A DNA stretch of 64,000 nt from Schaalia sp. ORNL0103 (GTDB taxonomy: Bacteria; Actinomycetota; Actinomycetes; Actinomycetales; Actinomycetaceae), in NCBI RefSeq assembly GCF_019429565.1, contig NZ_JAHXSA010000001.1, positions 496,001 through 560,000 of the forward strand, written 5' to 3'. Below are positions 3,951-45,905 of the stretch, piece after piece (position 1 is the first letter of the stretch; each line of letters begins with the position of its first letter). The notes beneath the pieces were generated by a model, which was not told the origin of the DNA, searched no databases, and worked only from the letters and a program-made list of their open reading frames with translations. The translations under genes and the position numbers were made by a program.

Positions 3951-6662
3951 TCAGCCCTTGCGCTTCGCAGGAGCCTCGCCCAGCTCGAAGGACTCGACAA
4001 CGGCCTCGGTGGCTTCAGCGTCGTCGGAGGCGGCCACGGTCAGGGCGCCCACGGCCTTCGACGCAGCCTCCAGGTCACCCTTCACGGACTCCAGGGCCTC
4101 CACCTGAGCCTGCGGGGCGCGCACCGTCACCGCCAGGAACGGCGTACGCGGCGACACCTTCGCCTCAGACTTCACGCGACGCAGCGCGATCAGAGCAGAG
4201 GACGCGGCCTCGAGCACCGAAGGATCGCCCTCGACGCCAGCCAGATCCGCGACCACCGGCCACGGGGCGGTGTGCACGGAGCCCTCGCGGTACCAGCTCC
4301 ACACCTCTTCCGTCACGTACGGCAGGTAGGGGGCCAGCAGGCGCACGACGTTATCAATGACGATCGCCAGAGCCGCACGGGCAGACGCGGCCGAGGCCTC
4401 GTCCCACGCGCCATCACGGTTGTAGGCGCGCTCCTTGACCAGCTCCAGGTAGTCGTCGCAGAACGTCCAGAAGAACGACTCCGTGACCTCGAGCGCGCGG
4501 GAGTGCTCGTAGGACGCCAGGGCAGCCGAGGCCTCGTCGATGACAGAAGCCAGCGCCGCCAGCACCGAACGATCCAGCGGCACCGTCACCAGCGCCGGAT
4601 CCAGATCGATCGCCGCGCCCTCGCCGCCCATCGTGAGCGCAAACTTCGACGCGTTCAGCACCTTGATTGCCAGGCGGCGGCCAATCTTCATCTGCTGCTC
4701 GTCGAACGCCGCATCCAGGCCCAGGCGAGCCGACGCCGCCCAGTAACGCACGGCATCCGAACCGTACTTCTCCAGGATGCCCATGGGGGTCACGACGTTG
4801 CCCTTGGACTTCGACATCTTCTTGTGGTCCGAATCCAGGATCCAGCCCGACAGGCCCGCGTGCTTCCACGGCAGCGCACCGAACTCCAGGTCCGCGCGCA
4901 CCACGGTGGAGAACAGCCACGTACGGATGATGTCCTGGCCCTGCGGGCGCAGATCCATCGGGTACGTGCGAGCGAACAGGTCCTCGTCATCCAGCCAGCC
5001 ACAGGCCAGCTGCGGGGACAGCGAGGATGTCGCCCACGTGTCCATGATGTCCAGCTCGCCCACGAAGCCGCCGGCGACGCCGCGCTGATCCTCCGTGTAG
5101 CCCTCCGGCACGTCCGTCGACGGATCGACCGGCAGAGCGGCCTCAGACGGGGTGATGATGTCGTCGTAGTTCACCTCGCCGTCCGCGTCCACGCGGTACC
5201 ACAGCGGGAACGGCACGCCGAAGAAACGCTGACGCGAGACCAGCCAGTCGCCCTTCAGGCCCTTCACCCAGTTCTCGTAGCGCACGCGCATGAAGTCGGG
5301 GTGGAACTCCAGCTCGCGGCCGCGGCCGATGAGCTCCTCGTTCAGGTCCTTGCCCGAGGCCGGGTTCGTCCACGCGCGGCCACCGTTACGGATGTACCAC
5401 TGGCGCGAGGTGACGATTTCGAGGGGCTTGTCGCCCTTCTCGAAGAAGTTGGTCTGACGCATCGTCTTGGTCGGCTCGCCCTTCAGCTCACCCGACTCGC
5501 GCAGGGCGGCCACCACGGCCTCGCGGGCGGAGAACGTCGTCTTGCCGGTGATCTCCTCGAAAGCCGCGCGGCCAGCGTCCGTCGTGATCCACTCGGGGGT
5601 CTCGGTGATGATGCGGCCGTCCTTGCGCAGGATCGCGCGCAGCGGCAGCTCCAGGTCACGCCACCAGTCGATGTCGGTCGTGTCACCGAAAGTACAGCAC
5701 ATGGCGATGCCCGCGCCCTTGTCCATCTCCGCCTCGGGGTGGGGCAGGATCGGCACCTCGACGCCGTACACGGGGGAGGCGACCGTCGTGCCGAACAGTG
5801 GCTTGTAGCGCTCGTCGTCCGGGTGGGCGATCAGGGCGACGCAGGCGGCCAGCAGCTCGGGACGCGTCGTCTCGATGCACACGTCCACGCCGTCCTCGAC
5901 GGGCGCGCCGGCGGCGGCAGCCTTCGCGGCGGCCTCGGCGTCGGTGATGTGGAAGGCCAGGCGGTGGTAGAAGCCCGGGTACTCGCGGCTCTCCAGCTCA
6001 GCCTGGGCGACCGCCGTCTGGAAGGTGACGTCCCACAGGCCCGGGGCCTCGGCCTGGTAGGCCTCGCCGCGCGCCAGGTTGCGCAGGAACGCGGCCTGGG
6101 CGACCTTGCGCGCACGCGCGCCGATCGTCTGGTAGTTCTGCTTCCAGTCCACGCTCAGGCCCAGGTAGCGCCACAGCGCCTCGAACTGAGCCTCGTCTTC
6201 CTGGGTGAGGCGCTCGCACAGCTCCACGAAGTTCTTACGGGAAATCGGCTTCTGGTCGCGAGCCTTGATCGACTTGCCGTCGCCGCCCACGTGCGGGGGC
6301 TCGAAGTCGGGGTCGTAGGGCAGGGTGGCATCCACGCGCACGCCGAAGTAGTTCTGCACGCGGCGCTCGGTGGGCAGGCCGTTGTCGTCCCAACCCATCG
6401 GGTAGAACACGGACTTGCCGATCATGCGCTGGTAGCGGGCCACGACGTCGGTGTGCGTGTAGGAGAAAACATGGCCGATGTGCAGGGAGCCGGATACCGT
6501 CGGCGGGGGAGTGTCGATCGAGTACACCTGCTCGCGCGTCGCGGTGCGGTCAAAAGCGTAGGTGCCCTGGCTTTCCCAGGCCTCACCCCACTTGGCTTCG
6601 AGGCCTTCGGGGGCGGCGCGGTCGGGCACGCGAGGCGCCTGCGCACGGGTGTTCATGGCCAT
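3951..6662 (-). CDS. valS: Valine--tRNA ligase
   Basis: Class I aminoacyl-tRNA synthetase charging tRNA-Val. The 903-residue protein shows the HIGH-type motif in PTVSGSLHIGHVFSYTHTD near residue 55, the ValS-typical GWDDNGLPTERRVQNYFGV segment, and the KMSKS loop in DHKKMSKSKGNV. An editing domain and a C-terminal anticodon-binding domain follow in the usual order. The chosen start is ATG at 6662 (MAMNTRAQ), about 11 nt after a GGAG box; a longer frame reaching 6770 has no ribosome binding site and would overlap the divergent promoter region. A strong hairpin terminator lies directly downstream. Length fits the actinobacterial ValS form. Confidence 0.96.
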   Translation of the reverse strand: MAMNTRAQAPRVPDRAAPEGLEAKWGEAWESQGTYAFDRTATREQVYSIDTPPPTVSGSLHIGHVFSYTHTDVVARYQRMIGKSVFYPMGWDDNGLPTERRVQNYFGVRVDATLPYDPDFEPPHVGGDGKSIKARDQKPISRKNFVELCERLTQEDEAQFEALWRYLGLSVDWKQNYQTIGARARKVAQAAFLRNLARGEAYQAEAPGLWDVTFQTAVAQAELESREYPGFYHRLAFHITDAEAAAKAAAAGAPVEDGVDVCIETTRPELLAACVALIAHPDDERYKPLFGTTVASPVYGVEVPILPHPEAEMDKGAGIAMCCTFGDTTDIDWWRDLELPLRAILRKDGRIITETPEWITTDAGRAAFEEITGKTTFSAREAVVAALRESGELKGEPTKTMRQTNFFEKGDKPLEIVTSRQWYIRNGGRAWTNPASGKDLNEELIGRGRELEFHPDFMRVRYENWVKGLKGDWLVSRQRFFGVPFPLWYRVDADGEVNYDDIITPSEAALPVDPSTDVPEGYTEDQRGVAGGFVGELDIMDTWATSSLSPQLACGWLDDEDLFARTYPMDLRPQGQDIIRTWLFSTVVRADLEFGALPWKHAGLSGWILDSDHKKMSKSKGNVVTPMGILEKYGSDAVRYWAASARLGLDAAFDEQQMKIGRRLAIKVLNASKFALTMGGEGAAIDLDPALVTVPLDRSVLAALASVIDEASAALASYEHSRALEVTESFFWTFCDDYLELVKERAYNRDGAWDEASAASARAALAIVIDNVVRLLAPYLPYVTEEVWSWYREGSVHTAPWPVVADLAGVEGDPSVLEAASSALIALRRVKSEAKVSPRTPFLAVTVRAPQAQVEALESVKGDLEAASKAVGALTVAASDDAEATEAVVESFELGEAPAKRKG

Positions 6663-42410: not shown

Positions 42411-43289
42411 TCAGTGGACCTCGAAGCCCAGCGAACGGAAGTAGTTGCGGACCTCTTCGGTGGCCTCGGGCGTGGGCGCCTTCGTGTCCTCAAGGTGGTA
42501 CTCCAGGCCCAGCGAGTGCCACTTGTCCTTGCCCAGCTGGTGGAAGGGGAGGACCTCAACGCGATCGATGACGTCCTTCCATCGGGAGACGATCTCGCCG
42601 ACCTGGCGGACGTTTTCGGGGTCGTCGGTCAGGCCCGGAACCAGCACGAAGCGGATCCACATGCGGGTGGTGCCGCCGCGAGCCGCGATGCGGTCGCCGA
42701 ACTCGATCGTGGGTGCCAGGGAACGGCCCGTCGCTTTCTTGTAGGTCTCCTCGTTGCCGCTCTTGACGTCCAGGAGCACCAGGTCGATGGCATCGAGCAT
42801 CTCGTCGTCGCAGTTCGCGCCGAGGAAACCGGAGGTGTCGATGCAGGTGTGCACGCCCATCTCCTTGGCACCCATGAGGATGCGCTTGGCGAACTGGGGC
42901 TGCATGAGGACCTCGCCGCCGGACAGGGTGATACCGCCCTTCGTCGTGCGGAAAATACGACGGTAGCGGGCAATACGCGAGAGCAGCTCCGTGTCGGACA
43001 CGGGAGCGCCGTCCTTCATGAGGAACGTGTCGGGGTTGTGACAGTACAGGCAGCGCAGCGGGCAGCCGTTGAGGAAAACCGTCATGCGCGTGCCGGGACC
43101 GTCAACGGCGGTGACGAGCTCCCAAGAGTGAATGGAACCCAGCGTGCCCTCACGCATGCGGCGCAGGCGCTCGGAGCGCTCCAGGTCCGTGATCTCCTCG
43201 AGGCCTTCGACGCCAGCGCCGACGGTACGTGATTGGGGAGCTTGGAAGTCCTGCTCGCGGAACGTGGGGAGAGCGAGGGGCTGCGTCAT
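42411..43289 (-). CDS. pflA: Pyruvate formate-lyase-activating enzyme
   Basis: Radical SAM activase, 292 residues, that abstracts a hydrogen from the glycine of pyruvate formate-lyase. The iron-sulfur motif is CPLRCLYCHNPD (C-x3-C-x2-C), followed by the SAM-binding GGITLSGGEVLMQP and the DVK stretch LVLLDVKSGNEE typical of PflA. The N-terminal ~45 residues before SIHSWELVTAVDGPG are longer than in the E. coli enzyme. Start ATG at 43289, with AAGGAAAC directly before it. It is the last gene of the pfl operon. Here its target glycine is on the separate small subunit just upstream rather than on the core protein. Confidence 0.94.
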   Translation of the reverse strand: MTQPLALPTFREQDFQAPQSRTVGAGVEGLEEITDLERSERLRRMREGTLGSIHSWELVTAVDGPGTRMTVFLNGCPLRCLYCHNPDTFLMKDGAPVSDTELLSRIARYRRIFRTTKGGITLSGGEVLMQPQFAKRILMGAKEMGVHTCIDTSGFLGANCDDEMLDAIDLVLLDVKSGNEETYKKATGRSLAPTIEFGDRIAARGGTTRMWIRFVLVPGLTDDPENVRQVGEIVSRWKDVIDRVEVLPFHQLGKDKWHSLGLEYHLEDTKAPTPEATEEVRNYFRSLGFEVH

Positions 43290-43381
43290 GTTTCCTTCTT
43301 CGCGGTTGAGTGGGATGCGTCCGTGATGGGAACGAGGCCGGGGATCATCAGCGCAGAGCGCCGACGAACGCAGGCATAGCA

Positions 43382-43412
43382 GTGGGGCGCCGAGCGTTGC
43401 CCGACGCCCCAC
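43382..43412 (-). other. Intercistronic hairpin between grcA-like gene and pflA
   Basis: GTGGGGCG (43382-43389) pairs with CGCCCCAC (43405-43412), 12 bp beyond the small-subunit stop on the minus strand. No U-tract follows, so it looks like an mRNA stabiliser or attenuator rather than a complete terminator. Confidence 0.5.
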
Positions 43413-43424
43413 TCCAATCAGCGA

Positions 43425-43676
43425 TCAGGCCGAGTGGTGGAAGGTGCGGGACAGAACGTCCAGCTGCTGCTCACGGGTGAGCTTGACGAAGTTGACGGCG
43501 TAGCCGGAAACGCGAACGGTCAGGTTCGGGTACTTCTCGGGGTGCTCCATGGCGTCCTTCAGCGTGGACTCCTCGAGAACGTTGATGTTCGCGTGGTAGA
43601 GGCCATCCTTGTCGCCGCGCTCTTCGCGGGCGGCCTTCATGTCGGCGAGGCGCTCTTCGTAGGTCTTGGTTGCCAT
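43425..43676 (-). CDS. grcA: Free-standing glycyl-radical domain of pyruvate formate-lyase
   Basis: 83-residue protein equivalent to the last ~60 residues of pyruvate formate-lyase and to the spare-part protein YfiD/GrcA. It contains [20 protein letters not shown] and the radical motif VRVSGYAV, in which Gly58 would carry the radical, then [15 protein letters not shown] to the end. About 25 charged residues precede the homology. The ATG at 43676 has an excellent AAGGAGA box. Because the neighbouring core protein stops exactly where this domain should begin, I read it as the missing piece of the enzyme, not as a damage-repair backup. Confidence 0.93.
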
Positions 43677-43753
43677 AACTTTTCTCCTTTTGTGAGACTC
43701 CGGAGTTACCGGATTGGGTGGGTCGCGGTGCGGCACACCCACGTTTGTGGGGT

Positions 43754-43790
43754 GGCGGGGATCAATACGGATGAGGCATCGATCCCCGCC
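43754..43790 (-). other. Intercistronic hairpin between pflB and grcA-like gene
   Basis: GGCGGGGATC (43754-43763) pairs with GATCCCCGCC (43781-43790), leaving a 17-nt loop, with a second smaller hairpin CCCAC/GTGGG just below (43738-43750). No U-tract follows. It probably affects mRNA processing or partial termination. Confidence 0.55.
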
Positions 43791-43799
43791 GATGGTGGA

Positions 43800-45905
43800 T
43801 CAGTAGCCCTTGGTGCCGTCGTAGGCGCAGGAATCGTCCGGAACGAAGCCAGCGTCGAGGATGCCGACCAGGTTCTGGATCTGCTCTTCCTTGGAGCGGC
43901 CCAGGCCCTGCGGGGTGATCGTGTTCGTCAGCGAGATGCCGTCGAGTGCGTCGTTGTAGTCCAGCTTGCCGACCGACAGCATGGAGGCAACCATGCCGTG
44001 CGTGTCGATGCCGTTCTCCGGGTTCGCGCCGGGGGCGAAGGGGGTGCCCTTCTCGTGGCCCGACGGGAAGGAACCGGTGGCCTTGCCGTAGACGACGTTC
44101 GAGGTAATCGTCAGGACCGACTGCGTCGGGATCGCGTCGCGGTACATGGGGATCGCGCGGATCTTGTCCATGACGGTGTGGACGACGGTCGCGGCGATGT
44201 CGTCGGCGCGGTCATCGTCGTTGCCGTAGGTCGGGAAGTCGCCCTCGGTGCGGTAATCGACGACCAGGCCGGTCTCGTCGCGGATCGGGTAGACCTTCGC
44301 GTACTTGATGGCGGCCAGCGAGTCGGCAACGATGGACAGGCCAGCGATGCCGCAGCCCATGGTGCGAATGATCTCGGAGTCGTGCAGCGCCATCTCGATG
44401 GACTCGTAGGCGTAGCGATCGTGGCAGTAGTGGATGATGTTGAGGGCCTCGACGTAGGTGCCAACGACCCAGTCCAGCATCTCCTCGTAGCGCTTCCACA
44501 CGTCATCGAAGTCGAGCGGGCCGTCACCCTGGACGGGCTCGTAGCCTTCCATGACCTGCTTGCCGCTCATCTCGTCGCGGCCACCGTTGATGGCGTAGAG
44601 CAGGGCCTTGGCGGCGTTCACACGCGCGCCGAAGAACTGCATCTGCTTGCCGACCTTCATGGGGGAGACGCAGCATGCGATGGCGGCGTCGTCGCCCCAG
44701 TGGGCGCGGATCTGCGGATCGGACTCGTACTGGATCGACGAGGTGTCGATCGAGATACGGGCGCAGAACTCCTTGTAGCCGCGGGGCAGGTTCTCGTCCC
44801 AGAAGATGGTGATGTTCGGCTCGGGGGCCGGACCGAGGTTGACCAGCGTCTGGAGCAGGCGGAACGAGGTCTTGGTGACCAGCGTACGACCGTCGTCGCC
44901 GAAGCCGGCGTCCGACCAGGTGGCCCAGTAGGGGTCGCCCGAGAAGATCTGGTCGTAGGCGATGGTGCGCAGGAAGCGGGTGATGCGCAGCTTAATGACG
45001 AGGGCGTCGATGATCTCCTGCGCGCCGGACTCATCCAGCGTGCCGTTCTTCAGATCGCGCTCGAAGTAGACATCGAAGAAGCCGGACAGACGGCCGATCG
45101 ACATGGCGGCACCGTCCTGGGACTTCACGGAGGCCAGGTAACCGAAGTAGGTCCACTGCACGGCCTCGTGCGCGTTGGTGGCCGGACCGGAGATGTCGTA
45201 GCCGTAGGACTGAGCCAGGTTCTTCAGCTTCTTGAGGGCCTTGATCTGCTCGGAGTGCTCCTCACGGTAACGTGCCCAGTGCTCGGAGAAGGGCTCGTTC
45301 GCGTAGCGATCCTTGTCCTTTTCCTTCTCGGCGATGAGGTGGTCAACGCCGTAGAGGGCCACGCGGCGGTAGTCGCCGATGATGCGGCCACGACCGTAAG
45401 CGTCCGGCAGGCCGGTGATGATGTGGGAAGAACGAGCAGCGCGAATACGCGGCGTGTAGATGTCGAAGACCGCGTCGTTGTGGGTCTTGCGGTACTTGGT
45501 GAAGATCTTCTTCACCTCGGGGTTGTATTCCTTGCCGGCCTCGTGGATGGCCGTCTCGACCATGCGCCAGCCGCCGTTCGGCATCATCGCGCGCTTGAGG
45601 GGGGCGTCGGTCTGCAGGCCGACGATCACGTCATCGTCCTCGCAGATGTAGCCCGGCTTGAAGGCGTCGATGTCGGCCGGGGTGTCCGTGTCGATGTCGA
45701 GGATGCGCACCTTGCGCTCTTCGGAGAGGTACTTCTCTTCGAGAGTGTTCCACACGCGCAGGGTCTTCTCGGTCGGTCCTGCCAGGAACGAGGCATCGCC
45801 CTCGTACGGGGTGTAGTTCAGCTGGATGAAATCACGAACGTCGATCTCATCGCACCAGTTACCCTTTACGAAACCTTCCCAGGCCTTCTGGTCTGCTGTC
45901 GTCAT
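43800..45905 (-). CDS. pflB: Pyruvate formate-lyase core subunit without glycyl-radical domain
   Basis: 701-residue catalytic core of formate C-acetyltransferase, which splits pyruvate to acetyl-CoA and formate under anaerobic conditions. The adjacent catalytic cysteines C411-C412 are in IACCVSPMKVG. The sequence follows the PflB family through DALDGISLTNTITPQGLGRSKEEQ and then ends at DSCAYDGTKGY, about 60 residues short, with no RVSGY motif. That segment is encoded separately 123 bp downstream. The core starts at ATG 45905, with AAGAGGAAGA upstream. The core, small subunit and activase form one minus-strand operon. Confidence 0.95.
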   Translation of the reverse strand: MTTADQKAWEGFVKGNWCDEIDVRDFIQLNYTPYEGDASFLAGPTEKTLRVWNTLEEKYLSEERKVRILDIDTDTPADIDAFKPGYICEDDDVIVGLQTDAPLKRAMMPNGGWRMVETAIHEAGKEYNPEVKKIFTKYRKTHNDAVFDIYTPRIRAARSSHIITGLPDAYGRGRIIGDYRRVALYGVDHLIAEKEKDKDRYANEPFSEHWARYREEHSEQIKALKKLKNLAQSYGYDISGPATNAHEAVQWTYFGYLASVKSQDGAAMSIGRLSGFFDVYFERDLKNGTLDESGAQEIIDALVIKLRITRFLRTIAYDQIFSGDPYWATWSDAGFGDDGRTLVTKTSFRLLQTLVNLGPAPEPNITIFWDENLPRGYKEFCARISIDTSSIQYESDPQIRAHWGDDAAIACCVSPMKVGKQMQFFGARVNAAKALLYAINGGRDEMSGKQVMEGYEPVQGDGPLDFDDVWKRYEEMLDWVVGTYVEALNIIHYCHDRYAYESIEMALHDSEIIRTMGCGIAGLSIVADSLAAIKYAKVYPIRDETGLVVDYRTEGDFPTYGNDDDRADDIAATVVHTVMDKIRAIPMYRDAIPTQSVLTITSNVVYGKATGSFPSGHEKGTPFAPGANPENGIDTHGMVASMLSVGKLDYNDALDGISLTNTITPQGLGRSKEEQIQNLVGILDAGFVPDDSCAYDGTKGY

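Follow-up and report, generated by a model that had tools for sequence, protein, structure and literature searches.

A pyruvate formate-lyase encoded as a catalytic core and a separate glycyl-radical protein in Schaalia sp. ORNL0103

The 64,000-nucleotide stretch of Schaalia sp. ORNL0103 DNA analyzed here (the window) contains a pyruvate formate-lyase (PFL) gene that stops before the segment carrying the radical glycine, while that segment is coded by a short gene of its own. Do these two genes make one enzyme and, if so, how did it come to be divided? In E. coli PFL, Gly734 holds the radical and Cys419 is the hydrogen donor, and the enzyme dies when oxygen cuts the chain at the radical glycine. 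The reading that we favor, with a probability of about 0.87, is an obligate two-subunit PFL made by gene fission, with its activity as a prediction.

The genes involved lie on the minus strand in the order core, small gene, activase. The core (43800..45905, minus strand) codes for 701 amino acids with the Cys pair C411-C412 and without the glycyl-radical segment. By itself it scores 998.5 bits against TIGR01255 (formate C-acetyltransferase; cut-off, 994.2), covering positions 1-682 of 744, while the small protein covers 685-743; the glycyl-radical motif of this model is thus not in the core polypeptide but encoded by a separate gene. The small gene (43425..43676, minus strand), separated from the core by 123 nt, codes for 83 amino acids with Gly58 in RVSGYAV, and an AGGAG at 43684..43688 (minus strand), 8 nt upstream of its ATG, is its likely ribosome binding site. 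Aligned with full-length E. coli PFL, the core corresponds to residues 9-695 and the 83-residue protein to 699-758, so that practically nothing is missing from the two-gene PFL, and the small protein begins with 24 new residues, where a preliminary description of this locus had estimated about 25. The gene that follows (42411..43292, minus strand) codes for a radical SAM PFL-activating enzyme of 293 amino acids, which passes TIGR02493 (295.6 bits; cut-off, 231.75). The preliminary description had proposed this same core, small gene with its own ribosome binding site, complete joint coverage and gene order; its observation of a split PFL is confirmed and its interpretation is supported.

Strong RNA hairpins are predicted in both gaps, one with a 15-bp stem between core and small gene (43754..43790, minus strand; z of −5.8 for the gap and −4.8 in a second run) and one between small gene and activase (43381..43413, minus strand; z of −3.3 and −2.8). 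Over loci of both split types described below, 22 of the 50 core-small gaps of at least 40 nt and 12 of 24 small-activase gaps gave a z under −2.5, with 100 shuffles each. That such hairpins act in expression by setting the subunit ratio is only a guess.

In a two-subunit enzyme, the barrel, substrate sites and both catalytic cysteines would belong to the core, and the parts that fill the barrel (last strand, Gly loop and C-terminal helix) to the 83-residue subunit. From what is known of the family, the adjacent PflA would generate a glycyl radical at the small subunit's Gly58, and this radical would then draw hydrogen from C412, as Gly734 does from Cys419 in E. coli. After fission, the core would have been left with a short tail, and an N-terminal helix would be new on the small subunit; with the covalent link gone, this helix may keep the small subunit bound to the core or bring it to PflA. 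Oxygen would be expected to break the small protein at Gly58, after which the intact core could take up a fresh copy.

The preliminary description had suggested modeling the complex to see whether the small subunit fills the Gly-loop position. A model of the read-through chain (pLDDT, 86.1; pTM, 0.88) superimposes on E. coli PFL (PDB 2pfl) at 1.3 Å over 751 residues, 58% of them identical, with pLDDT of 69 to 80 in the Gly-loop blocks, and it places the small subunit in the Gly-loop site. As this is one chain with a read-through linker and there are fused relatives in the alignment, the placement is partly built in. A single-sequence fold of the read-through chain was useless (pLDDT, 36.0).

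How the division arose can be read in part from the pieces at the break. Split cores carry a short tail of 5 to 15 residues beyond the matching ...DAG or DGG, and split small proteins have 22 to 26 residues ahead of GLYH. Within the window's split type (type A), this extension keeps the pattern [TS]-[YF]-x-x-R-L-x-x-M-K-x-x-R. Over 55 small proteins, the T/S, the F/Y and the first R are present in all 55, and the M and the last R in 54 each; R, M and R are spaced by four, which puts them on one helix face, and the fold model has a helix at small-protein residues 6-20 (block pLDDT, 72 to 88). At the thresholds used, 0 core positions specific to the split type passed the filter, so no docking site was found. 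We also considered a motif common to this extension and the N-terminal extension of the activase (ERLRRMREG), which was dropped because activase extensions also accompany fused PFLs.

Fused relatives read a 17-letter protein sequence across the junction, which makes fission likely, and the fused PFLs of Bifidobacterium/Gardnerella and Cellulomonas citrea read one or the other of two 22-letter sequences. The same two-subunit enzyme could also have come about without fission, if a PFL lost its Gly domain and captured a spare part that already existed. Stand-alone ORFs beside a full-length PFL do exist: in Silvimonas terrae (L101), a full-length PFL is followed directly, at 4748-4948, by an ORF that carries RVSGYAV, spans 61 residues from its ATG and may be a minimal spare part within a PFL operon. 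Nevertheless, type A small proteins share a 10-letter sequence, or one near it, with the fused PFLs of Bifidobacterium, Gardnerella and Cellulomonas citrea, while the other eight fused rows inspected read YHMNVNVL or FHMNVNVL, and the core tree sets those same fused PFLs next to type A. We therefore consider capture improbable, although it is the best of the alternatives to fission of a fused gene.

A second split type bears on the number of such events. Its cores end at profile position 665-670, about 17 residues earlier than in the window's type, and were found in 21 of 396 genomes of the phylum, in two families that lie outside the class of the window's genome and are probably Coriobacteriia. 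The small gene, present in all 14 examined of these 21 genomes, codes for exactly 83 amino acids and starts before the NLV-MIDGY segment, which the window's type keeps on the core; the second-type core has a new acidic tail, which contains a Cys in 13 of the 14. The phylum search did not score every candidate, and three of the 21 genomes (G249, G270, G451) had no small match listed in it; for G249, inspection of the locus (L075) revealed the small gene. In Bacillota (the phylum of Acetivibrio, G546), 104 of 348 genomes have a PFL match over the cut-off, 103 of these matches ending at 740-744 and one (G775, L164) being a second-type split that possibly got there through transfer.

In a tree of 95 chosen cores (quick search with SH-aLRT supports; L115, L154 and L157 were dropped, as trimming failed or left them short), the two split types are far apart, each with fused relatives. 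Forcing both into one group was 333 log-likelihood units worse (AU p of 1.6e-70), and a single origin of both is rejected. The window's type as one clade was not rejected (p of 0.83) and scored better than the free tree, in which the fused PFL of Cellulomonas citrea (L102) falls inside the type A split clade; for this reason we discarded a re-fusion in that species. Cellulomonas citrea also has a second partial PFL-like match (L166; G552 C379), covering 143-677 of 744 with 395 bits in a 635-residue frame. The same division thus appears, from these sequence comparisons, to have arisen independently at least twice. Such repetition suggests an advantage in having a radical part that can be replaced, and fissions at two different points suggest selection and not accident.

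A different reading would make the small protein a classical GrcA spare part, which rescues only oxygen-damaged full-length PFL. It does resemble E. coli GrcA and matches GrcA2 (NF008341) above the cut-off (165.9 versus 145 bits), but it stays below that of classical GrcA/YfiD (TIGR04365; 81.9 versus 170), and no full-length PFL was found for it to serve. A full-length PflB elsewhere, which the preliminary description had said would speak against its proposal, was not found in the host genome (2.35 Mb, 4 contigs, 99.99% complete): the single PFL-like match and the two glycyl-radical matches in this genome all belong to the two halves of the split PFL, and a profile search of it gave no further match to PF02901 or PF01228. 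Nor was a full-length PFL found in any core-type genome among 151 genomes of the family, presumably Actinomycetaceae. A PFL-model match was found in 135 of these 151, and among the matches listed, where full-length ones rank at the top, 97 genomes have the core only, 32 a fused PFL, 6 a weak or other match and 0 both forms. The core-only form is present in all 12 genomes of the window's genus, the window's included, a genus that we take to be Schaalia; this speaks indirectly against a fused gene in other isolates of the species, which the preliminary description had named as counter-evidence.

The small protein also follows the split cores. Within the sensitivity of the search, it occurs in family genomes that have a split core and was not found in those that have a fused PFL or no core, which agrees with the earlier proposal that it is obligatory. 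Fused genomes show the PFL match only in 30 of 32 cases, with a weak extra match outside the Gly domain in the other two; this absence of the small gene comes from the same profile search, whose loose first pass may miss short genes. No orphan small gene was seen in 12 rechecked family genomes without a PFL core. Five of these 12, which are also five of the six with weak or other matches, have just another glycyl-radical enzyme, about 900 residues long; a short weak match is all that one more genome has, and six have nothing. Taken together, a spare-part role is very unlikely, even less probable than capture.

The two-subunit reading can be followed locus by locus. The preliminary description had called for a search for PflB proteins of about 700 residues adjoining a gene of about 80 codons, and this arrangement, with the small gene directly downstream of the core, is found in 46 of 46 family loci examined, namely, the window's and 45 others chosen to span genera (the remaining 51 of the 97 core genomes are known only to have at least two matches listed). 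The gaps between core and small gene range from −1 to 227 nt. All of the small genes start with ATG and 45 of 46 small proteins have 81 to 85 amino acids, the other, of 66, being cut by a contig end. With L083, which comes from a different family of the same order, there are 47 loci: all 47 retain the ACC Cys pair and RVSGYAV, 45 have an RBS-like site, and 46 are followed by a same-strand activase, the last one being cut by the contig.

These loci also decide against a broken pflB, by mutation or sequencing error, whose 3' end stayed open by chance. The 123-nt gap of the window is in frame with a single TGA, as such a break would leave it, but this is chance, judging by the relatives: the relative frames 0/1/2 occur 13/19/14 times in the 46 family loci, and the core stop is TGA in 25, TAA in 17 and TAG in 4. 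Three relative frames and three stop codons exclude a sequencing error, which is also implausible as the split recurs in 97 family genomes, and a pseudogene would hardly keep an ATG with an RBS-like site (45 of 47 loci) and conserved new residues. What decay may look like can be seen in a one-contig genome of the same class (G173, 9.2 Mb), where a 700-residue PFL ORF (L165) has a match that stops at profile position 637 and no PF01228 match exists anywhere; this is probably a decayed PFL. We thus give practically no weight to a pseudogene or an error. Read-through of the stop codon, or another recoding that joins both into one chain, for which the agreeing frames and the one TGA of the window might speak, is ruled out for practical purposes by the same frame and stop statistics. 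Two separate genes, complete coverage, conservation, co-occurrence and two origins are what comparison of the sequences gives for an obligate two-subunit PFL.

The distribution of the module has some irregularities; the 80 named loci surveyed are the best of at least 586. The window's type is also found in Corynebacterium (L084-L087, L089, L091) and Dermabacter (L090), which may reflect transfer of the module from one family to another. In one genus (g21), a single genome is split (L029, G021) and five others are fused (including L049-L051, that is, G118, G051 and G106); as L029 is far from L049 and L051 in the tree, this points to replacement or mis-binning and not to a recent fission. A Trueperella MAG (L088) has a type A core interrupted between two frames with the small gene intact, which may be true damage or an error of the MAG. 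The core of L151 is interrupted as well, and L085 is cut by its contig.

A central enzyme of anaerobic fermentation is thus encoded, here and in many relatives, as two proteins, a catalytic body and an oxygen-fragile radical part. With the glycine on a small separate subunit, one can test whether exchange repairs the enzyme, and a natural split PFL makes it possible to study the access of PflA to the glycine and the means by which a radical domain stays in place without a covalent link.

Compared with known systems, E. coli PflB (PDB 2pfl, 1h16; TIGR01255) shares with the two-gene PFL its fold, Cys pair, Gly motif and separate activase, but it is one chain of 759 residues, while here there are two genes, broken at E. 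coli 695/699. GrcA/YfiD (TIGR04365, PDB 6owr, the sole short-chain PDB match of the small proteins) shares 59 homologous C-terminal residues and a radical glycine provided in trans. According to the accessible text of one study (PMC8683613), GrcA serves full-length PFL, and its N-terminal half, 60 residues long, is disordered; the small protein, by contrast, has a short conserved extension and no full-length PFL in its genome. NCBIfam names GrcA2 and GrcA3 as autonomous cofactors, while our evidence makes them obligate subunits, each paired with a core without that domain. Of the type A small proteins, 3 of 3 scanned match GrcA2 above the cut-off; the second-type ones pass GrcA3 (NF038360) in 3 of 3 scanned (163.9 to 167.2 bits), for which the window's protein reaches 97.1 bits (cut-off, 158). 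The spare part for a full-length PFL that the name GrcA2 implies does not apply here, and where a GrcA2 or GrcA3 protein adjoins a short PFL, annotation should treat it as a subunit.

The two pieces are not unknown already, as shown by these NCBIfam names and by PDB 38lb ("Formate acetyltransferase"), which aligns to residue 737 of 739 of a second-type core, tail included; others have therefore worked on second-type cores. PDB 38la, of the same name and a natural or cut chain, ends at the second-type break, and both entries represent the second type, unlike the window's. No paper on a split PFL was found by title or abstract in a literature set without preprints and with few subscription papers, which does not imply that there is none.

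The nearest engineered counterpart is E. coli tPFL (1-695) combined with YfiD, which has the same breakpoint as the window's pair. In the accessible text of PMC8683613, binding of YfiD by tPFL was not detectable and its radical was 32-fold lower than that of cPFL with YfiD, and once activated with YfiD it is as active as the wild type; in that of PMC12338860, E. coli PflB G734A made formate with GrcA and not without it. We can tentatively propose, at somewhat less than even odds, that the radical domain became a consumable subunit at least twice independently: a long-lived core would be served by an 83-residue subunit that has its own RBS, is loaded by PflA and is exchanged once oxygen has destroyed it, and the helix would be the docking handle that makes workable the break at 695, which is crippling in E. 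coli. The engineered pair binds and activates poorly, as far as that text goes, whereas a new N-terminal extension and a core tail are present in the natural one; this suggests that the natural pair needs compensating contacts, and the conserved extension would be the natural place to seek them.
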